From: a virus
Strand: one strand, 5' to 3'
Virus record (IMG/VR): IMGVR_UViG_3300032288_001668
Span: 1 to 35,531 of that record
Length of the DNA stretch: 35,531 bases
The position numbers were made by a program, and so were the translations under genes. Each line of letters begins with the position of its first letter. Position 1 is the stretch's first letter. Below the pieces are notes generated by a model that saw only the letters and a list, made by a program, of their open reading frames with translations, did no database searches and was not told the origin of the DNA. Below are positions 5,339 through 23,785 of the stretch, piece by piece.

Positions 5339-5534
5339 GAAGGATTCTTCATCATTTTGGTCATGCGAATGTATCGGTCCTCAAGAGGGTCAAGAATACT
5401 GTCCATGTGTTCTTGAGATGTATGCCAAAGAGCAACAGTTTAGGGAATCGTATGAATCCATCATGCAGAAACTTTCCGATCTTCAACAAGAGATAGAGAC
5501 CTGTAGCTCAATGGTTAGAGCCGATCGCTCATAA
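5328..5534 (+). CDS. Small Cys-rich protein running into tRNA-Met
   Basis: This encodes a 68-residue protein that overlaps the nuclease end by 11 bases and has AAGGA upstream of its ATG. The N-terminal half has CECIGPQEGQEYCPC, a possible metal-binding Cys cluster, followed by a predicted helix (YAKEQQFRESYESIMQKL...). The last 12 codons and the TAA stop lie inside the tRNA-Met gene, and the stop is formed by bases 5532-5534 of the anticodon loop. Either the protein truly ends there or the original 3' end was replaced when the tRNA arrived. I do not recognise a family. Coding status is likely but not proven. Confidence 0.55.
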   Translation: MDAKKDSSSFWSCECIGPQEGQEYCPCVLEMYAKEQQFRESYESIMQKLSDLQQEIETCSSMVRADRS

Positions 5535-5572
5535 CGGTTTGGTTGGGGGTTCGAGTCCCTCCAGGTCTACCA
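5497..5572 (+). tRNA. tRNA-Met or tRNA-Ile2 (anticodon CAT)
   Basis: A full cloverleaf can be drawn. The acceptor stem AGACCTG pairs with CAGGTCT. The D stem GCTC/GAGC pairs, and the anticodon stem is followed by loop CTCATAA with CAT at 5530-5532. The T arm is GGGGG TTCGAGT CCCTC, the discriminator is A and the CCA end is encoded. CAT may mean elongator Met or, with lysidine modification, Ile reading ATA; sequence alone does not decide. It overlaps the 3' end of the upstream coding sequence. Confidence 0.9.
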
Positions 5573-5576
5573 AATA

Positions 5577-5669
5577 GGGCGATAGCACAGGTGTGCGGGA
5601 GAGATTTATAAACTCTTATAGCGGCAGATTACCGTTCTCGGGAAGGCTCGATACCTTCATCGCCTACCA
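5577..5669 (+). tRNA. Type II-like tRNA with unusual anticodon arm
   Basis: The 7-bp acceptor stem GGGCGAT/ATCGCCT, the T arm (GAAGG, loop CTCGATA, CCTTC) and the encoded ACCA end support a tRNA of 93 bases. The D arm is a compact GCAC-AGGT-GTGC hairpin. A long variable region with its own stem (GCGG/CCGT near 5621-5634) points to the Leu/Ser/Tyr class. The anticodon arm is odd. GAGAG/CTCTT encloses a 9-base loop ATTTATAAA. Forcing a 7-base loop leaves a mismatch and gives TAT or ATA. I cannot assign the amino acid. It could be a degenerate or atypical tRNA. Confidence 0.6.
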
Positions 5670-5672
5670 TAA

Positions 5673-5747
5673 GCACTATTGGTGAACTGGCTATCATATC
5701 GGTCTGTCGAACCGGAGTAGAGGGATCGAAACCCTCATAGTGCGCCA
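5673..5747 (+). tRNA. tRNA-Asp (GTC)
   Basis: The acceptor stem GCACTAT pairs with ATAGTGC. The anticodon stem TCGGT/ACCGG closes the loop CTGTCGA with GTC at 5706-5708. The T arm is GAGGG ATCGAAA CCCTC. The G discriminator, an Asp identity element, and an encoded CCA complete a 75-base tRNA. It lies 3 bases after the previous tRNA. Confidence 0.92.
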
Positions 5748-5764
5748 ACTATATACTTCTTTAT

Positions 5765-5839
5765 TCCAGCGTAGCTCAACGGTAGAGCAATCGGCTGTTA
5801 ACCGATTGGTTATAGGTTCGAATCCTATCGCTGGAGCCA
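5765..5839 (+). tRNA. tRNA-Asn (GTT)
   Basis: The acceptor stem TCCAGCG/CGCTGGA, a D arm GCTC/GAGC, the anticodon loop CTGTTAA with GTT at 5797-5799, a T arm with TTCGAAT, a G discriminator and an encoded CCA give a standard 75-base tRNA-Asn. It is the last of four tRNA-like genes packed between 5497 and 5839. The bases between them hold no other feature that I can see. Confidence 0.95.
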
Positions 5840-5855
5840 ATTCAAAGGAAAATCT

Positions 5856-6713
5856 ATGACTATTATTGACAAGTCCACTTACTTCGTGGGCAATGACACT
5901 GGAATTCTTCTCATTCATGGTCTTGGTGGTACTCCTGTTGAAATGCGTTATATCGCTAATGGACTACATCGTGCAGGTTACACAGTCTATTGCTGCCAAC
6001 TTGCAGGACATTGTGGTTCACCTGAAGACCTACAAAAAGTTACATGGAAAGACTGGCTTGTCTCAGTCGAACAAGCACTAGACAAGATGAAACATTGCAA
6101 GAAGGTGTTCGTTGGTGGACTATCAGCAGGATCATTGCTGGCTCTGTATCTCGCAGAGAAATATCCTAAGCGTATCTCTGGTTGCCTGCTTTACTCACCA
6201 ACACTTGTTCTCAACGGCTGGTCACTGCCATTCTATATGAAGTGGCTTCGTCATTTGCGTCCATGGATGATGATGTTTGACATGATGCTATCTGAGCGTC
6301 ATCCACATGGCATCAAGGATGATCGTGTGCGAAACATGATCGTCAATTCTATGCAAAGCAACACAACTGATGCTGGCACATTCTACACACCACTATCAAC
6401 GATGATTCAATTCAATTGTTTGTCTGCGTACATGCGTAAGCGATTGAGTAACATCAAAGTTCCTCTCATTACATTCCATCCACGTGAAGATGATTTTGCT
6501 CATATCTCCAACTCAGAGGAGATTGTCAGAAAGTCATCCGGTCGTGCGGAGTTAGTTGTGCTCGATGACTGCTATCATATTATTGTGCTTGACAGGCAGC
6601 GAGACATTGTGCTATATAAGAGTCTAGAGTATGTCTCTTCGTTTCTTTCAGCGGAACGAAAAGATCGTGAGAAGAAAGTTCTACAGTATAGGTCACGTAG
6701 TTCAGTTGGATAG
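5856..6713 (+). CDS. Alpha/beta hydrolase (carboxylesterase-like)
   Basis: This is a 285-residue cytoplasmic serine hydrolase of the carboxylesterase/monoacylglycerol lipase type. The oxyanion loop HGLGG is at 21-25. The nucleophile elbow GGLSAG at 87-92 makes Ser90 the nucleophile. An acid follows near Asp212/Asp213 (HPREDDF), and His241 lies in DDCYHIIVLD. A Met/Trp-rich cap occupies about 125-160. The substrate is unknown; it might be a host lipid, an acyl ester or a small signal molecule. The start has AAAGGA upstream. The last codons and the TAG stop (6711-6713) lie inside the following tRNA-Arg, so the C-terminal tail was probably captured from tRNA sequence. A second, unrelated-looking hydrolase of the same fold lies at 7829. 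Confidence 0.87.
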   Translation: MTIIDKSTYFVGNDTGILLIHGLGGTPVEMRYIANGLHRAGYTVYCCQLAGHCGSPEDLQKVTWKDWLVSVEQALDKMKHCKKVFVGGLSAGSLLALYLAEKYPKRISGCLLYSPTLVLNGWSLPFYMKWLRHLRPWMMMFDMMLSERHPHGIKDDRVRNMIVNSMQSNTTDAGTFYTPLSTMIQFNCLSAYMRKRLSNIKVPLITFHPREDDFAHISNSEEIVRKSSGRAELVVLDDCYHIIVLDRQRDIVLYKSLEYVSSFLSAERKDREKKVLQYRSRSSVG

Positions 6714-6767
6714 AACAACGGATTTCTAATCCGTATGTCGCAGGTTCGAGTCCTGCCGTGATCGCCA
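6691..6767 (+). tRNA. tRNA-Arg (TCT)
   Basis: The acceptor stem GGTCACG pairs with CGTGATC (one G-T pair). The D arm is TTC/GAA. The anticodon stem ACGGA/TCCGT closes the loop TTTCTAA, with TCT at 6726-6728 within that loop. The T arm is GCAGG TTCGAGT CCTGC, with a G discriminator and an encoded CCA. It reads AGA/AGG codons. AGA dominates in the late genes of this window and is absent from uvsX, so this tRNA probably supports late translation. It overlaps the hydrolase 3' end by 23 bases. Confidence 0.93.
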
Positions 6768-12724: not shown

Positions 12725-12746
12725 TAACTGAATGGAGAATAATATC

Positions 12747-13724
12747 ATGAAGAAACTTTTGACTACAGCAATGCTACTATCCCTCACTGCGCCTGCACTA
12801 GCACAGACCAAGACGATTGCTATTGATGGATCGTCAACTGTGTTTCCAATCGTTGAAGCACTAGCCGAGGAATATCAGAAGAGCACCAAGAATCAGGTAC
12901 GAGTAACAGTTGGTATTTCTGGTACTGGCGGTGGTTTCAAGAAGTTCTGTCGTGGTGAAACGCAATTCTCAAATGGCTCTCGTCCTATTCTCAAGTCAGA
13001 AATCGAAGCCTGTAAAGCAAACGGTATTGAGTTTATCGAACTGCCACTTGCCTATGATGCTCTCACTGTCGTCGTCAACAAAGCCAATTCACTCAAGTGC
13101 ATCAAGGTTTCTGAACTGAAGACAATGTGGGCACCAGACAGCCAAAATGTCGTCATGCGTTGGAATCAAGTCAATCCTGCATGGTCCAATCAGCAACTCC
13201 GTCTGTTTGGCGCTGGCTCTGACTCAGGCACATTTGATTACTTCACTGAAGCCATCGTTGGTAAAGCGAAATCTTCACGAGGTGACTATACGGCATCTGA
13301 AGACGACAATGTGCTCGTGAAGGGTGTTGTGGGCAATCCTGATGCTCTGGGGTATTTCGGCTTTGCTTATTATTTCTCCAACAAGGACAAGCTGAAGGCA
13401 CTTGAGATTGACAATGGTTCTGGTTGTGTTGCTCCCTCTTTTGAAAATGTTCTCAAGGGATCATATAGCCCACTGTCTCGTCCACTCTTCATCTATGTGT
13501 CGGCCAAAGAAGCCAAAAAACCAGAAGTCGCTCAGTTTGTTGAATTTATGATGGCAAACGCATCTAAGCTAATCAAGGAAGTCAATTATCTTCCTCTGCC
13601 TGATAATGCTTATACCTTTGGTCTGACACGGTTCAAGGCAAACGAAGTCGGAACAGCCTTTGCGGGTCAATCTGAGATCGGTGTGAGCATTGAAGACATT
13701 CTAAAGAAGAAGCCAAAGATGTGA
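12747..13724 (+). CDS. pstS: Periplasmic phosphate-binding protein PstS
   Basis: This is a 325-residue substrate-binding protein of the high-affinity phosphate ABC transporter. It has a signal peptide (cleavage after ALA, about residue 19). The phosphate-site segments [21 protein letters not shown] and [12 protein letters not shown] follow in order, with a later GYFGFAYYF core. The length matches PstS. T4-like marine phages carry pstS to keep phosphate flowing into infected cells. I saw no Pho box upstream. The start at 12747 has GGAG 9 bases upstream; an in-frame ATG at 12732 does not. The gene precedes the prkA cassette, with one small membrane frame between. Confidence 0.93.
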
Positions 13725-13731
13725 TCTGAAC

Positions 13732-13836
13732 ATGACAGGTGAATATATACAAGCAGCCCTAGCCATTGTTTGCGTGATCGTTATGGTTGGGGCTGCTATC
13801 TATGCGACAATTAAAAATGCTCAAGGTGATGACTAA
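13732..13836 (+). CDS. Small membrane protein, 34 aa
   Basis: This short frame follows pstS by 7 bases. It encodes an N-terminal acidic segment (MTGEYIQ), one hydrophobic span (AALAIVCVIVMVGAAIYA) and a short polar tail. It is the second tiny single-span protein in the window. Its TAA stop is fused to ATA, giving a TAAATA late-promoter-like core upstream of prkA. Coding status is plausible from its composition but unproven. Confidence 0.5.
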   Translation: MTGEYIQAALAIVCVIVMVGAAIYATIKNAQGDD

Positions 13837-13871
13837 ATAATGCATGTTCAATAGCAAGGGATTTAACCATA

Positions 13872-15809
13872 ATGTCAATCCTACAAAAGTTCAAGGCGGA
13901 CTATGATAGTGCCGAAAAACAGACACTAACTCTAGATGAATATCTCACACTCTGCTCTAAAGATAAAATGGCATATGCCTCTGCTGCTGAAAGAATGGTT
14001 GCAGCTATTGGTGAGCCAAAACTGGTTGACACATCAAAAGATGCCCGACTATCACGTATCTTTACCAATCGCACCGTTCGTGTTTATCCTGCATTCGAAG
14101 ATTTCTATGGCATGGAAGACACCATCGAACGCATCGTTGGATTCTTCAAGCACGCTGCGCAGGGACTAGAAGAACGCAAACAGATTCTATATCTTCTCGG
14201 TCCTGTGGGTGGTGGTAAGTCGTCACTAGCCGAGAAACTGAAAGAGTTGATGGAAACACACCCCATCTATGCTCTAGCAACAGAAACTGGCGAAGTGTCT
14301 CCTGTGTTTGAGACGCCACTAGCACTCTTCACAAAGTACGCTAAGTCCATCGAAGAGCAATATGGCATCGATCCCCGCTATCTCAACACAATTCCATCAC
14401 CCTGGGCTCTCAAGCGGCTCAAGCAATTCAATGGTGATCTCTCCAAGTTCCGTGTGGTCAAGCTAAAGCCATCTAAGTTGGAACAAATCGCAGTGATGAA
14501 GACTGAGCCTGGAGACGAGAACAATCAAGACATCTCAACTCTAGTCGGTAAGGTTGATATTCGCAAGCTAGAGAAGTTCAGCCAAAACGATTCAGATGCC
14601 TATTCATATTCTGGTGGTCTATGTCGTGCCAACCAAGGTCTTCTTGAGTTCGTTGAAATGTTCAAGGCGCCAATCAAGGTGCTGCATCCCTTGCTAACAG
14701 CAACACAAGAAGGCAACTACGTCGGCACCGAAGCCATATCTGCCATTCCATTTCAGGGCATCGTTCTAGCTCACTCTAACGAATCTGAGTGGCAAGCCTT
14801 TCGTGGCAACAAGAACAACGAAGCCTTCTTGGATCGTATCTGCGTAATCAAGGTGCCATACTGCCTACGTGTGGACGAAGAGAAGAAGATTTACGAGAAG
14901 ATGATTCGGTCATCATCACTCAAGGCTGCTCCCTGCGCACCACAGACCGTAGAGATGCTAGCCCAGTTCTCAATTCTCACTCGTCTAAAGTATCACGACA
15001 ACTCAACTCTGTTCTCCAAGATGCGTGTTTACAACGGTGAGAACATTCGTGAGTCCGATCCACGCGCCAAGACCATTCAAGAGTATCGTGACGTGGCTGG
15101 TGTTGATGAAGGCATGGAAGGCATCTCAACTCGGTTTGCCTATAAGATTCTCTCCAAAACCTTCAACTTCACTGCTGAAGAAGTGGCGGCTGATCCCGTG
15201 CATCTCATGTATATTCTTGAACAGTCAGTCAAAGGCGAACAGTTTGGCGAAGAGAAGGAAGAAACCTATCTTGACTTCATCAAGTCTGAACTATCCCCTC
15301 GGTATGCCGAGTTCCTTGGCAACGAGATTCAAAAGGCTTACCTAGAAAGCTACAACGAATATGGACAGAATCTATTTGATCGGTACATTGAGTTTGCCGA
15401 TGCATGGTGTCAGGACTCAGAGTTTAAGGACCCAGACACTGGTTTGCTCATGGACAGGTCTTTGCTTAATGACGAACTAGAAAAAGTTGAGAAGCCTGCT
15501 GGTATCGGTAATCCCAAGGATTTCCGTAACGAGGTTGTCCAGTTCTGCCTACGTGCTCGTGCAAAGCCTGAGAACAATGGCAAGAATCCCAAGTGGACAT
15601 CATACTCTGTTCTTCGTGATGTGATCGAAAAGCGTATGTTCTCGCAAGTTGAAGACATTCTACCTGTCATCTCTTTTGAAGGTAAAAAGGACAAGGAGAT
15701 GGATCGCAAGCATAAGGACTTCATCAAGCGCATGGAAGATCGTGGGTACACACCACGGCAGATTCGTCGCCTTGTTGAATGGTATCTTCGCATCCGAAAG
15801 AGTTCCTAA
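13872..15809 (+). CDS. prkA: PrkA-type serine protein kinase
   Basis: This is a 645-residue protein, full length for the PrkA/YeaG family (about 640). It has an N-terminal AAA-like ATPase domain with Walker A GPVGGGKS at 110-117. A long central part follows (ALFTKYAKSIEEQYGIDPR; AHSNESEWQAFRGN; EAFLDRI), and the C-terminal PrkA domain ends basic. In E. coli, YeaG acts with YeaH in nitrogen starvation and stress adaptation. In Bacillus, PrkA affects sporulation and has been reported to have protease activity. The start has AAGGGA upstream, with a TAAATA element about 35 bases before it. The stop overlaps the next ATG (TAATG). With yeaH and spoVR downstream it re-creates the bacterial starvation module inside a phage. 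Confidence 0.95.
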   Translation: MSILQKFKADYDSAEKQTLTLDEYLTLCSKDKMAYASAAERMVAAIGEPKLVDTSKDARLSRIFTNRTVRVYPAFEDFYGMEDTIERIVGFFKHAAQGLEERKQILYLLGPVGGGKSSLAEKLKELMETHPIYALATETGEVSPVFETPLALFTKYAKSIEEQYGIDPRYLNTIPSPWALKRLKQFNGDLSKFRVVKLKPSKLEQIAVMKTEPGDENNQDISTLVGKVDIRKLEKFSQNDSDAYSYSGGLCRANQGLLEFVEMFKAPIKVLHPLLTATQEGNYVGTEAISAIPFQGIVLAHSNESEWQAFRGNKNNEAFLDRICVIKVPYCLRVDEEKKIYEKMIRSSSLKAAPCAPQTVEMLAQFSILTRLKYHDNSTLFSKMRVYNGENIRESDPRAKTIQEYRDVAGVDEGMEGISTRFAYKILSKTFNFTAEEVAADPVHLMYILEQSVKGEQFGEEKEETYLDFIKSELSPRYAEFLGNEIQKAYLESYNEYGQNLFDRYIEFADAWCQDSEFKDPDTGLLMDRSLLNDELEKVEKPAGIGNPKDFRNEVVQFCLRARAKPENNGKNPKWTSYSVLRDVIEKRMFSQVEDILPVISFEGKKDKEMDRKHKDFIKRMEDRGYTPRQIRRLVEWYLRIRKSS

Positions 15810-16240
15810 TGAAATCATTCAAGCAACATCTTCAAGAAAGTAAAGTGCCTTCAATAAAGAAGATAGCACAGTCCCTCGGTGGCAAGACGGGTGAGGGTGA
15901 AGATTGTGATGGTGGTTATTGGGCACATGGTGGCAGATGCCAAGAGTTTAGAAAGAGTCTGAAAGAGAAACTAAAAGATCATGGGTATAAAGTTGTGCCC
16001 CATGATCATCCAGACGCACGTAAACCAGGACATATTGTAGAATGGGATAGTGAGTATCATGGCTTGCACGGCAATCCACCTGAAAAACATAAGAAAATGT
16101 TCTTGCATGGTCACAACAATCATAATTGGCTTCAAGTGACTGACCATAATGGAACAAGACATTATGACTCAATGAATCCCGAAGGTGTTAAGCATCCCCA
16201 TCAATTTAAGTTTTTCAAAGATGTGGTAAAAAACTCATGA
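15809..16240 (+). CDS. Small His-rich protein with capsid-targeting-like N-terminus
   Basis: This 143-residue protein begins MKSFKQHLQES. That matches the shape of T4 capsid-targeting sequences (for example MKTYQEFIAE of internal protein III), and the LQE could be the cut site of a gp21-type prohead protease. The rest is rich in His, Gly, Asp and Lys, with GEDCDGGYWAHGGRC near residue 35 and a C-terminal part containing HGHNNHNWLQVTDHNG. The body is unknown to me. If the leader works as in T4, the protein is packaged and injected. It is coupled to prkA (TAATG) and to yeaH (ATGA), so it is an integral member of the cassette. An ATG at 15779 is rejected because it overlaps prkA. Confidence 0.7.
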   Translation: MKSFKQHLQESKVPSIKKIAQSLGGKTGEGEDCDGGYWAHGGRCQEFRKSLKEKLKDHGYKVVPHDHPDARKPGHIVEWDSEYHGLHGNPPEKHKKMFLHGHNNHNWLQVTDHNGTRHYDSMNPEGVKHPHQFKFFKDVVKNS

Positions 16241-17505
16241 CAAACATCATTGATCGCAGAAAGAATCCACGAGATAAGACTATCCGCAATCGGCAGAAGT
16301 TTATTCAGCGTTCCAAGTCTGCGATTCGTGAGAGAGTAAAAGAGATCATCGAAAAAGGTAGTATCAAGGATATCGATACTACCAAGACCAAGATCAAAGT
16401 GAAGGGTGTTTCGGAGCCATCCTTCTCTATTGATCGTCGCACAGGGAACAAGAAGTATGTTCTTCCTGGTAACAAGCAATATGTTCATGGCGACAAAGTA
16501 CCCAAAGAAGAACAAGACGGTGGTTCTGGCGGAAGAGGCAAACAAGCAGGCAAAGGTCGTGGCGAAGATGACTTTGAGTTTCTGCTAACTCAAGAAGAGT
16601 TTGCCGACTTCCTGTTCGATGAACTTGAACTACCCAATCTGATCAAGAAGCAACTCAAGAATACCACTCTGGTTGAGTATCAGAAGGCGGGTTACAAGAG
16701 CTTCGGCACACCCAATCAGATTGACATTGCACGAACAGCCAAGAATGCTATCGGTCGTCGTATTGGTCTCAATCGCCCCAAGAACGAAGATATTGAAGAA
16801 CTAGAACAGCAACTTGAAACTGAAACTGATCCAGACAAAAAAGAAGAACTTAGGCTAAAGATCGAAGAACTAAAAGCCAAGCAGATCGCTGTTCCTTGGA
16901 TTGATCCCTTTGATGTGAAGTATCGCAACTATGTTCCTGTCCCCAAGCCAATCACTCAGGCTGTGATGTTCTGCGTGATGGACATCTCAGCATCTATGCA
17001 GGAGAAGGAGAAGGACATTGCCAAGCGGTTCTTCATGCTGCTTCACATGTTCCTCAAGCGCAAGTATGAAAAGTTAGAAGTCGTTTTCATTTCACATCAT
17101 GATCGTGCTCAAGAAGTTGATGAGGACACGTTCTTTCATTCTCGTGAGACAGGCGGCACACTTGTATCATCTGCTCTCACACTTACCAACGAAATCATTG
17201 ACAAGCGGTATCCACTTTCTGACTGGAACATCTATGTGGCTCAGTGTTCGGATGGTGACAACGCATCATTTGACTATGACTACATTGCCGATGAAATGTC
17301 TGTGTTGATGCCCAAGGTTCAATACTTTGCATATGTTGAAGCGGCTAATCCTCATACCGCTGCAATGGGCATGGTATCTGAACTCTGGCGCACCTACGTC
17401 TACATCATCGATAAGTATCCACATCTACAGATTCGAATGGTGTTTGATAACACAGGCATCTGGGAAGTATTCACGGAACTGTTCTCAAAGGAGAAGTCTG
17501 CATAA
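16237..17505 (+). CDS. yeaH: YeaH/YhbH (DUF444) family protein
   Basis: This is a 422-residue protein of the DUF444 family, which is partnered with PrkA in bacteria. A basic N-terminus (IIDRRKNPRDKTIRNRQKFI) and a Gly-rich low-complexity linker at 93-109 precede a von Willebrand A-like domain. Its MIDAS-like motif FCVMDISASM lies at 245-254 (Asp249, Ser251, Ser253), and a later TGGT segment gives the expected conserved Thr. The length agrees with E. coli YeaH (427). A coiled segment near 183-215 (EELEQQLETETDPDKKEEL) is present. It overlaps the upstream gene by 4 bases and abuts the HNH gene by TAATG. Confidence 0.93.
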   Translation: MTNIIDRRKNPRDKTIRNRQKFIQRSKSAIRERVKEIIEKGSIKDIDTTKTKIKVKGVSEPSFSIDRRTGNKKYVLPGNKQYVHGDKVPKEEQDGGSGGRGKQAGKGRGEDDFEFLLTQEEFADFLFDELELPNLIKKQLKNTTLVEYQKAGYKSFGTPNQIDIARTAKNAIGRRIGLNRPKNEDIEELEQQLETETDPDKKEELRLKIEELKAKQIAVPWIDPFDVKYRNYVPVPKPITQAVMFCVMDISASMQEKEKDIAKRFFMLLHMFLKRKYEKLEVVFISHHDRAQEVDEDTFFHSRETGGTLVSSALTLTNEIIDKRYPLSDWNIYVAQCSDGDNASFDYDYIADEMSVLMPKVQYFAYVEAANPHTAAMGMVSELWRTYVYIIDKYPHLQIRMVFDNTGIWEVFTELFSKEKSA

Positions 17506-17978
17506 TGCCAAGAGGGATATATCCTAGACAATCAATGAAAGACAGATTTTGGTCTAAGGTTGATAAGAGCGATGGTCATGGTCCAAACGGAGATTGTTGG
17601 GTGTGGACATCAGAAACAATCAAACAAGGGTATGGTCGCTTCTGGATGAAGGGTGGTCCTATTCTCGCACATAGGGCATCTATTCTTTTGTCCGAGGGTA
17701 AAATGCCTGATCAAGACGTTCTACACAAATGTGATAATCCAAAATGCGTTAGACCAGATCATCTCTTTCTCGGTAGTCATTCTGACAACATGAAAGACAT
17801 GATTGAAAAGGAAAGACAGCGTAGAGGTGATTCATCACCCGTTGCTGTTGTGAATAGTCAGCAGGTACAAGAAATTCGAAGCAGCAAAGAGACGAATGCA
17901 TATCTAGCAAAAGTGTACGGCATTGACTCTTCGCAAATCTCAAGAATTAGAAATCACAAATCTTGGAGTCATGTCTAA
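17505..17978 (+). CDS. HNH homing endonuclease
   Basis: This 157-residue free-standing homing endonuclease has an HNH_3-type core, with AHR at 55-57, VLHKCDNPKC at 72-81, H86 in RPDHLF, and N95 in SHSDNM. His74, Cys76, Cys81 and His86 are the catalytic and zinc residues. The C-terminus carries a helix-turn-helix/NUMOD-like DNA-binding segment (NAYLAKVYGIDSSQISRIR). The gene sits seamlessly between yeaH and spoVR, with TAATG at both borders, as if it had inserted at an original stop-start overlap. It probably cleaves phage genomes that lack it, at or near this junction. Confidence 0.9.
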   Translation: MPRGIYPRQSMKDRFWSKVDKSDGHGPNGDCWVWTSETIKQGYGRFWMKGGPILAHRASILLSEGKMPDQDVLHKCDNPKCVRPDHLFLGSHSDNMKDMIEKERQRRGDSSPVAVVNSQQVQEIRSSKETNAYLAKVYGIDSSQISRIRNHKSWSHV

Positions 17979-19495
17979 TGGCCAAGAAGACCAAACTCTT
18001 GTATGAAGATAACACATGGACATTTGATCGTCTGAAACGTGCAAACGAAGCCATCGAAGAAATTGCACTAAAGGAACTCAAGTTGGATGTGTATCCAAAT
18101 CAGATCGAAATTATTGGGTCTGATCAGATGTTGGATGCTTATTCGTCTGTTGGGCTTCCAATTATGTATCATCATTGGTCGTTTGGTAAGAACTTCATTC
18201 AAGAAGAATACTCTTACCGTAAAGGCATGTCGGGACTAGCATACGAGATCGTGATCAATTCAAATCCTTGCATCAGTTACCTGATGGAGGAGAACTCCAT
18301 GACCATGCAAACACTCGTGATTGCTCATGCTGCCTATGGTCACAACCATTTCTTCAAGAACAACTATCTGTTCAAGCAGTGGACCGACGCAGGCTCTATC
18401 GTTGATTATCTCGTGTTTGCTCGTAACTACATCAGCAAGTGCGAAGAGGAACACGGTCCCGAGACTGTAGAAGAAATTCTGGATGCTTGTCATGCCATCA
18501 TGGACTATGGTGTAGATCGGTATAAGCGTCCTACCAAACTCAATAAGCAGAAAGAGAAAGAGCGTCAGAAAGAACGTGCTGAGTATGTTCAAGCCCAAGC
18601 CAATCTGCTCTGGTCAACACTGCCTAAGAAGTTTGAGGTGTTGCCTGCTCTCAACCAGGGTAAGATTTTCCCCAAAGAGCCACAAGAGAATTTGCTTTAC
18701 TTCATCGAAAAGCATTCGCCCAAGCTAGAAGCATGGCAACGTGAGATCGTTCGTATCGTTCGCAAGATCAGCCAGTATTTCTATCCACAGCGTCAAACCA
18801 AGCTGATGAACGAGGGCTGGGCGTCATTCACTCACTATTACATCATGAAACGTTTGTGGGAAAAGGGTCTGATCGATGATGGTTCCCACCTTGAGTTTCT
18901 GCATTCACATTCGTCTGTCCTGTATCAGCGTCTGCATGATAACAAGCACTACTCTGGCTTCAATCCCTACGCACTTGGGTTTGACATGTTTACAGACATT
19001 CGTCGCATCTGCGAAAATCCAACTGAAGAGGACAAGGAGTATTTCCCCGACATTGCTGGTCAGCCTTGGCTAGATGTGTGTCTGGATGCTGTTGCCAACT
19101 ATCGTGACGAGAGTTTCGTCACACAGTTCCTCAGTCCAACGATCATGCGGAAGTGGCAATTGTTCGAGGTAACAAATCGAACCAAGGATGCTCATTATCT
19201 GATCAGTGGCATTCAAAACAGAACGCACTACAACGATATTCGAAACTCACTAAGCAAGCAATATTCCATCCAGTCCTGGCAGCCTGATATTCAAATCATC
19301 AATGCCAATCTGGATACAACACGAACTCTCCAACTTAGATACACATCCATCAATGGTGCGGAACTCAACAATACCAAGTATGATGTAATGGAACATATGG
19401 AAAAGTTATGGGGTTATCCAGTCACGATGGAAGACAACATTTCACCAAAAGGAACTGATGTTGATCTGTTTATTAGGGACGATTCGGGCGTTTAG
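17978..19495 (+). CDS. spoVR: SpoVR family protein
   Basis: This is a 505-residue protein, full length for the SpoVR/YcgB family. Recognisable blocks are MYHHWSFGKNF near 55, GLAYEIVINSNP, the His-rich AHAAYGHNHFFKNN, EGWASFTHYYIMKRLWEKG in the middle, and FNPYALGFDMF. In Bacillus SpoVR affects spore cortex formation. In E. coli ycgB is an RpoS-dependent partner of yeaGH. The conserved His and Glu residues suggest a metal site, but the biochemical function is not established. I chose ATG 17978, which overlaps the HNH stop; an upstream ATG at 17963 lies inside the HNH gene. It ends the cassette, and a new promoter starts 3 bases later. Confidence 0.93.
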   Translation: MAKKTKLLYEDNTWTFDRLKRANEAIEEIALKELKLDVYPNQIEIIGSDQMLDAYSSVGLPIMYHHWSFGKNFIQEEYSYRKGMSGLAYEIVINSNPCISYLMEENSMTMQTLVIAHAAYGHNHFFKNNYLFKQWTDAGSIVDYLVFARNYISKCEEEHGPETVEEILDACHAIMDYGVDRYKRPTKLNKQKEKERQKERAEYVQAQANLLWSTLPKKFEVLPALNQGKIFPKEPQENLLYFIEKHSPKLEAWQREIVRIVRKISQYFYPQRQTKLMNEGWASFTHYYIMKRLWEKGLIDDGSHLEFLHSHSSVLYQRLHDNKHYSGFNPYALGFDMFTDIRRICENPTEEDKEYFPDIAGQPWLDVCLDAVANYRDESFVTQFLSPTIMRKWQLFEVTNRTKDAHYLISGIQNRTHYNDIRNSLSKQYSIQSWQPDIQIINANLDTTRTLQLRYTSINGAELNNTKYDVMEHMEKLWGYPVTMEDNISPKGTDVDLFIRDDSGV

Positions 19496-20440: not shown

Positions 20441-20515
20441 GCTTCTTTCGTCTATCGGTTAGGACACTAGACTTTCACTCTGGTAAGACGGGTTCGATTC
20501 CCGTAGGAAGCGCCA
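20441..20515 (+). tRNA. tRNA-Glu (TTC)
   Basis: The acceptor stem GCTTCTT pairs with AGGAAGC (one T-G pair). The anticodon loop CTTTCAC has TTC at 20474-20476. The T arm is ACGGG TTCGATT CCCGT, with a G discriminator and an encoded CCA, giving 75 bases. It is a lone tRNA far from the cluster at 5.5-6.8 kb, directly downstream of a methyltransferase that may act on RNA. Confidence 0.94.
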
Positions 20516-23139: not shown

Positions 23140-23349
23140 ATGAAACCTGTATTGAAAACTATGCTAACAGAACGTAAAGCTGTTTCTGAAAAAAGACTTG
23201 CAATCTGTAGAGAATGTGAGTATTTTAGAGAACGTGCAGCCAAGTGTGAAAAGTGTGGCTGCTTTATGGAATACAAAACGATGCTAATGAGTGTAGAATG
23301 CCCAATAGGCAAATGGGGCAAAGAAAAAGAGGATAATCAAAATGGCTGA
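23140..23349 (+). CDS. Small four-cysteine zinc-binding protein
   Basis: This 69-residue protein has a CxxC pair, ICRECEYF, and a second cluster, CEKCGCFM, followed by a last Cys in SVECPIGKW. The order of Cys pairs and the ending CPIGKW match a small zinc-finger family common in T4-like phages just before virion-related genes. It is basic and probably binds nucleic acid or a virion protein. It overlaps the Dps start by 8 bases. The biochemical role is unknown. Confidence 0.75.
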   Translation: MKPVLKTMLTERKAVSEKRLAICRECEYFRERAAKCEKCGCFMEYKTMLMSVECPIGKWGKEKEDNQNG

Positions 23350-23785
23350 TTCGTTGATTGATCAAGCAAAGAAGGTTCTTGCTGATACGTTTGTTATGTA
23401 CATGAAAGCACATTCTTATCACTGGAATGTGATTGGTCCAGATTTTCCACAACTTCATGACTTCTTCGGTAAACTATACGAAGAACTTCATGATGCTATT
23501 GATCCTCTTGCAGAACACATTCGTGCTCTCGACGCATTTGCACCTGGCACACTTGTTCGTATGACAGAACTAAGTACAATAAAAGAAGACGAGAAAATTC
23601 CTACAACACAAAACATGATTGCTAATTTGCTTGATGCTAACGACAAAGTTATGAATACACTGGTTGAAGCTCGCAACAAAGCAGATGTTCTAGAGATGTA
23701 TGGTTATGTAAATTTTCTCGAAGAGAGAATTATGGTTCACTCTAAACATCGTTGGATGCTAAAATCTATCGCAGAAAAGAAATAG
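23342..23785 (+). CDS. dps: Dps-family ferritin-like protein
   Basis: This is a 147-residue four-helix-bundle protein. The ferroxidase residues keep the E. coli Dps spacing: His27 in SYHWNV, His39 in PQLHDFF, Asp54 and Glu58 in AIDPLAEHIRALD. Dps forms a 12-subunit shell that oxidises iron with peroxide and protects DNA. In a phage it may guard intracellular or packaged DNA from oxidative damage. It lies among late genes, but 4 of its 5 Arg codons are CGN, unlike its AGA-rich neighbours, which suggests more recent acquisition. It overlaps the zinc-finger gene upstream. Confidence 0.93.
   Translation: MADSLIDQAKKVLADTFVMYMKAHSYHWNVIGPDFPQLHDFFGKLYEELHDAIDPLAEHIRALDAFAPGTLVRMTELSTIKEDEKIPTTQNMIANLLDANDKVMNTLVEARNKADVLEMYGYVNFLEERIMVHSKHRWMLKSIAEKK

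Follow-up and report, generated by a model that had tools for sequence, protein, structure and literature searches.

Described systems with PrkA, YeaH and SpoVR

PrkA (an AAA+ protein), YeaH (DUF444, a VWA-domain protein) and SpoVR form a trio conserved across bacteria, in which the families have roles in starvation (PMC4664914; PMC10954441). The 35.5-kb linear virus fragment considered here (IMG/VR record IMGVR_UViG_3300032288_001668, 35,531 nucleotides, hereafter "the window") carries the complete prkA-yeaH-spoVR trio. The same trio is carried by dozens of large uncultured phages of several lineages and, judging from sequence motifs, is apparently under the phage's own late-stage promoter. 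In Rhizobium etli, the three families are encoded by a prkA-vWA-spoVR operon (CH02817-CH02815), headed by prkA, the most ppGpp (guanosine tetraphosphate)-induced gene on the array (PMC3188799). In E. coli, yeaG and yeaH lie together and ycgB is found elsewhere in the genome; the proteins YeaG and YeaH act together as a brake on metabolism (PMC10954441). PrkA of B. anthracis displays ATP-dependent oligomerisation without detectable kinase or protease activity, and has been modelled as a hexameric clade III AAA+ protein; kinase activity is disputed even for bacterial PrkA (PMC13001217).

The families, the bacterial operon and the annotation of single genes in phages are already known (PMC8504454; phiYS40 record). 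The lytic Ralstonia jumbo phage RsoM2USA encodes SpoVR (ORF28) and PrkA (ORF30) on one strand, two open reading frames (ORFs) apart and separated by a gap of yeaH size; the genes are not presented as a module, and ORF29 is not identified in the main text (PMC8504454). Thermus phages phiYS40, TMA, phiLo, MN1 and Lalka possess, like the window, PrkA, vWA and SpoVR-like genes side by side. They differ from it, however, by a sequence identity of ~25%, by the order vWA-SpoVR-PrkA, by portal and large terminase (TerL) neighbours in Lalka8, and by very long branches in the trees. A further likeness is the MoxR-vWA pair of group 2.2 jumbo phages, a phage AAA+ ATPase with a vWA protein that has been proposed to form a chaperone system. 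Unlike in the trio, its ATPase is MoxR and not of the PrkA family, its vWA protein is fused to a metallopeptidase, and no SpoVR accompanies it (PMC7824862). In the window, Pfam matched only PrkA domains in the AAA+ protein, with no sign of the MoxR family, and only DUF444 (residues 4-419) in the vWA protein, with no N-terminal metallopeptidase. PHROGs has families for all three proteins of the trio, labelled "unknown function", and spoVR is the most abundant viral sporulation gene in the virome of an oxygen minimum zone (PMC8940887). Two jumbo-phage papers (PMC13282480, PMC9123017) do not mention the trio genes. Searches of open-licence papers found no description of the intact viral module, of its recurrence across large phages or of its late-type promoter.

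The phage trio shares with the R. etli operon the same three families, order, strand and full length, and alphaproteobacterial PrkAs are up to 70% identical to the phage protein. The differences are a late-type viral promoter motif in place of the stress-regulated (RpoN/ppGpp) promoter, a separate viral clade, and insertions of HNH and GIY-YIG genes and of inteins.

The trio of the window

The genes prkA (yeaG-like, 13872-15809, 645 residues with an AAA+ domain and a PrkA C-terminal domain), yeaH (16237-17505, 422 residues) and spoVR (ycgB-like, 17978-19495, 505 residues) all lie on the plus strand. The three proteins match their Pfam families end to end: PF08298 and PF06798, both complete, for PrkA, PF04285 for YeaH, and PF04293 and PF24755 for SpoVR. 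Each also exceeds the cut-off of its NCBIfam equivalog, PrkA with 1175.8 bits against PRK15455 (cut-off 576), YeaH with 527.9 bits against PRK05325.1-2 (cut-off 396), and SpoVR with 778.8 bits against PRK11767.1 (cut-off 679). The key motifs are kept as well. The Walker A of PrkA (GPVGGGKSS, 14199-14225, plus strand) and its Walker B region (EFVEMFKAP) are the same as the bacterial consensus, and the MIDAS motif of YeaH (DISASM, 16981-16998, plus strand) retains an intact DxSxS (DISAS). In SpoVR, the conserved HAxxGHN and NEGxAxxxH motifs are intact as HAAYGHNHFF (H117, H122; 18326-18355, plus strand) and NEGWASFTH (E279, H286; 18809-18835, plus strand). An earlier note, made from the sequence alone, had proposed full-length prkA, yeaH and spoVR in bacterial order with key motifs preserved and every junction a stop-start overlap, and all of this, coordinates included, is borne out.

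Two further genes separate the three in the window: orfX (15809-16240, plus strand, 143 residues) between prkA and yeaH, and an HNH endonuclease gene (17505-17978, plus strand; PF13392, phrog_59), probably a homing-type insertion, between yeaH and spoVR. Read from the sequence, the four junctions are TAATG at 15807-15811 (prkA/orfX), ATGA at 16237-16240 (orfX/yeaH), TAATG at 17503-17507 (yeaH/HNH) and TAATG at 17976-17980 (HNH/spoVR). The start of orfX is most likely ATG 15809, and that of spoVR ATG 17978 rather than TTG 17963. Order and common strand are those of a translationally coupled prkA-yeaH-spoVR operon, into which the two inserts are joined by stop-start overlaps.

The earlier note had listed two extra genes alongside the three. 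The nearest relative of the window, locus L004 on the 163.9-kb contig G001 (PrkA 99%, YeaH 95%, SpoVR 96% identical), has prkA, yeaH and spoVR directly contiguous, without either of them; both are therefore insertions and not members of the module. For the HNH gene, L004 thus provides the empty allele. No match to orfX was found in family or phage-protein searches. Nucleotide identity between the window and L004 falls to ~83-86% in 300-nt blocks beside the HNH gene (window 16800-18300), against 94-98% just past spoVR, and the synonymous divergence (dS) of yeaH and spoVR is above that of most neighbouring genes; co-conversion after homing may be one cause of both. Other viral loci are interrupted at these junctions by gaps of 530-2677 nt, some of them occupied by GIY-YIG-like ORFs of one cluster (e.g. 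L012, L092). On its reverse strand, G001 has an extra 237-residue ORF between the pstS-like gene and prkA, ~0.8 kb upstream of the latter. This ORF is missing from the window, and both edges of the cassette are therefore sites of gene gain or loss.

The assignment of the window to a phage rests on its UvsX-, DnaB- and ThyX-type genes and on the hallmarks of its relative G001, where genes for gp23, TerL, the tail sheath and the tail tube are present. The phage is T4-like.

Distribution among large phages

A scan of IMG/VR found 202 relatives of PrkA, and the best 80 of them were retained. Once duplicates were removed, all three genes were present in 70 of 83 viral records, with the same order and strand in 70/70; in each of the remaining 13, a gene of the trio lies against or near a contig end. 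The trio is thus no peculiarity of one phage. Strong gp23 and terminase matches are found, among other carriers, on contigs of 137, 158, 164, 202, 323, 342, 363 and 578 kb. INPHARED adds four uncultured genomes of 595-642 kb that have the trio, along with the Thermus phages, whose version is divergent (~25% identity). In the record of Enterobacter phage LAU1 (MN688132, 1-3308), a lambda-like prophage, yeaG and yeaH occupy the extreme end and are annotated as phage genes; they are probably host flank.

Inheritance and selection

The PrkA tree places the window inside a viral clade of 16 rows with 100% support, adjoining a mainly alphaproteobacterial group. The virus and bacterium labels need four changes on this tree, at least three of them forced by supported branches, which indicates that PrkA has been exchanged between viruses and bacteria more than once; the bacterial sample is biased toward close relatives and tells little on the direction of transfer. 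Phage PrkA is 65-70% identical to bacterial PrkA. This identity and the repeated exchange argue for the same biochemistry in both, and a wholly new, phage-specific job is less likely than a conserved one given such identity.

A core viral clade of 14 rows is found in the separate PrkA, YeaH and SpoVR trees, with support of 100, 99 and 100, respectively. The tree distances of the three proteins correlate at ~0.74, against a permutation maximum of 0.125. Between the window and L004, the ratio of nonsynonymous to synonymous rates (dN/dS) is 0.011 for prkA, 0.067 for yeaH and 0.050 for spoVR, for a 28-gene median of 0.077; for other viral lineages, the corresponding medians are 0.061, 0.092 and 0.061. 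These closer pairs were used since dN/dS is saturated across the core clade. By these measures, PrkA, YeaH and SpoVR are inherited together, as one unit, and evolve under purifying selection. The view of the earlier note that selection holds the set together is supported by these ratios and by the invariant order and strand; regular truncation and relaxed selection, either of which would have spoken against a functional module, were both looked for and neither was seen.

A late-promoter-like motif upstream of prkA

The late promoters of T4-like phages are of the TATAAATA type, and for phage Aeh1 the late promoter has been reported to be CTAAATA (PMC1524935). In the window, a CTAAATA of this type (13833-13839, plus strand) stands 39 nt upstream of prkA. 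It is the commonest 7-mer within 80 nt upstream of viral prkA (17 of 46 loci). Either CTAAATA or ATAAATA is found there in 25 of 46 viral loci versus none of 80 bacterial loci; 0.98 loci would be expected from the density of the motif in the same loci, and 3.9, with a maximum of 11, over 500 resamplings of the upstream sequence. The motif precedes prkA in 9 of 13 phage groups. Of the remaining ORFs at these loci, 153 of 813 are also preceded by it, for a Fisher p value of 2e-7 in favour of prkA that is computed from rows that are not independent. None of 70 viral yeaH or spoVR starts is preceded by it. In a T4-type late unit, a box of the TATAAATA/CTAAATA type stands a short way upstream of the first gene and of no other, and the presence of the motif at prkA but not at yeaH or spoVR fits a single transcript.

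Reading CTAAATA as a late element is supported by the sequence of G001, whose tail sheath gene has CTAAATA 51 nt upstream, by the orthologous genes following gp23, preceded by CTAAATA in two phages and by ATAAATA in a third, and by the Aeh1 precedent. Also in G001, NATAAATA is found upstream of gp23, of the tail tube gene and of the head-tail adaptor gene. Against this, gp23 of other lineages has no motif directly upstream. Nothing was found in the literature on the timing of expression in phiYS40.

Protein structures

A sequence homologue of PrkA has been solved under the name "Serine protein kinase" (PDB 9xip/9xiq/9xir; E 6.3e-54, residues 78-626). It is a distant relative, with GPVGSAKST as Walker A. 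Of note, SAK or TAK replaces GGK in the Walker A of PrkA from L012, L013, L105, L107 and the Thermus loci L192-L194, likewise as in 9xip. Sequence searches of the PDB found no solved relative of YeaH or SpoVR. The predicted fold of YeaH matches VWA domains (E down to 2.3e-7), including the MIDAS domain of Rea1, the docking part of an AAA+ remodeller. The SpoVR prediction is confident (predicted local distance difference test, pLDDT, 84.6; predicted template modelling score, pTM, 0.83). It has no PDB match below E 0.001 and a single viral structural match, a 617-residue protein whose length fits the SpoVR of phiLo.

Inteins usually sit in active sites. In-frame inserts are present inside three phage SpoVRs (L061:13412-15832; L099:9998-13069; L189:15516-17423, in LR756504, a 636-kb phage); intein models match those of L099 and L189, and that of L061 is recognised by its intein-like ends only. 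The L061 insert sits within HAAYGHNHFF, and the L189 and L099 inteins are located at or just before NEGWASFTH. Since the inserts lie in or beside the two motifs, in which H117, H122, E279 and H286 are invariant, we infer that these motifs form the active site, perhaps a metal-binding one. The inteins of phage SpoVRs thereby point to the catalytic region of the family.

Gene neighbourhoods

The surroundings of the trio are wholly different from lineage to lineage. In Thermus phage Lalka8 it lies between the portal/minor head genes and TerL, and in phiYS40 near TerL. In L030 it is immediately followed by T4-type genes for neck and sheath stabiliser and by TerL, and in a marine lineage of ~28 contigs it lies downstream of virion, PAAR and tail-like genes. 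The L018 group has it upstream of a phage elongation factor G, and in the window it is flanked by a PstS-like protein and a SpoU methylase; in these two lineages it is far from structural genes. As the trio stays together while its surroundings change, the cassette behaves as an autonomous module.

In the window, the PstS-like phosphate-binding protein (12732-13724) is directly upstream of the trio, and a Dps/ferritin-like protein (23342-23785) is encoded downstream; the phage thus has further genes of starvation type.

Possible roles of the phage trio

The late-type motif and the placement of the trio among structural genes suggest late action. In the reading favoured here, to which about an even chance is given, a late operon supplies the bacterial AAA+/VWA/SpoVR stress machine at a time when host transcription is off. 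From the intact genes, their co-inheritance and the promoter motif, we infer late transcription, complex formation, a client and a physiological effect, as follows. The complete copy of PrkA, YeaH and SpoVR would be made as one operon from the phage's own T4-type late promoter. PrkA would form an ATP-driven AAA+ ring, YeaH, with its VWA domain and intact MIDAS, would dock clients to this ring, and SpoVR, probably a metal-site protein, would be a third component or a client. The machine would act late, at a stage with host transcription shut off and the cell drained of energy and nutrients. The host could then not induce its own copy via ppGpp, NtrC or RpoS, and the phage would itself provide that same "quiesce and protect" activity up to the completion of its virions. 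On this evidence, the data suggest that many large phages supply a starvation machine themselves at the end of infection, and the probable target of the trio is something that late infection shares with starvation. That large phages of several lineages keep the trio intact, often behind a late-type promoter, indicates that it is worth ~5 kb to the virus. Were deletion of a phage copy to give a phenotype, the function of this bacterial trio would become testable.

Several points weigh against a late supply of the stress machine. In both the window and G001, UvsX is likewise preceded by the motif, so that late timing is no more than suggested, and 19% of neighbouring ORFs have it too. In the marine lineage it is present at only one of seven tested loci. 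The R. etli prkA mutant has no clear stress phenotype (PMC3188799). A trio belonging to a general starvation gene set was considered and rejected, pstS being present in only 1 of 17 and dps/ferritin in 5 of 17 trio-bearing records, which amounts to no general association in a count made without a trio-free control set. Finally, the placement of the trio among structural genes in three lineages fits a role in virion assembly as well or better.

Such a role is the main rival, although it has a rather low probability. In this scheme, PrkA and YeaH would be an AAA+/VWA chaperone pair acting, with SpoVR, in the remodelling or assembly of the head, neck or tail proteins of the phage. The structural-gene neighbourhoods of Lalka8, phiYS40, L030 and the marine lineage are consistent with it, as is the late-type promoter motif, and the phage MoxR-vWA pair offers a precedent, as argued for group 2.2 jumbo phages (PMC7824862). 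It fits less well that the trio is far from structural genes in the window and L018 lineages, and that PrkA is still close to bacterial PrkA, whose hosts build no virions. Furthermore, neither PrkA nor SpoVR is among the ten virion bands identified for RsoM2USA (PMC8504454), although a chaperone need not remain in the virion.

A broader proposal, also doubtful, is that the trio is a widespread late viral machine, exchanged with bacteria, that assembles or matures proteins at the end of infection, and that the bacterial trio would be a general AAA+/VWA protein-maturation system. If this holds, the client and the SpoVR chemistry of the bacterial trio could be found through the phage copy.

The earlier note had instead proposed that the phage uses or pre-empts host starvation signalling, perhaps to keep infecting slow-growing cells. 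In this version the trio would act early, with infection of such cells or the holding of a pseudolysogenic state as possible ends. The bacterial starvation roles of the families (PMC4664914; PMC10954441) and the PstS-like and Dps/ferritin proteins of the window would agree with this. The pre-emption it supposes is, however, a poor fit to a T4-type late-promoter motif before prkA, which suggests late expression, and the structural-gene neighbourhoods in three lineages and the scarcity of pstS and dps/ferritin in trio-bearing records also speak against it; this version is improbable. More unlikely still is a complex devoted to counter-defence or inter-phage conflict, in which the AAA+ and VWA proteins would disable or evade host defence, or exclude other phages. 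AAA+ and VWA pairs do occur in bacterial conflict systems, according to PMC7159879 and PMC7824862. The neighbourhoods of the trio, however, showed no defence-type association (no PADLOC model search was made), and the bacterial copies are stress-regulated housekeeping operons.

An artefact or a passenger, that is, host contamination or a cassette that homing endonucleases and inteins bring along at no gain to the phage, is scarcely credible: IMG/VR does hold false positives, the LAU1 yeaGH looks like host flank and HNH, GIY-YIG and intein elements occur within the trio, but trio-bearing contigs carry hallmark genes, L004 keeps the trio without both window inserts, the trio is under purifying selection, and the phage-only clade has 100% support. 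For the lineage of the window, host contamination is ruled out by the hallmarks of G001 and by this fully supported viral clade.

Other observations

An elongation factor G gene is located downstream of the trio in seven viral contigs: L018 (14988-17057), L017, L023, L028, L029, L034 and L041. That of L018 has its own late-type motif. The window also encodes five tRNAs (Met, Asp, Asn, Arg-TCT and Glu), at 5497-6767 and 20441-20515, of which the Glu tRNA is found shortly downstream of the trio and of the SpoU-type RNA methylase gene.

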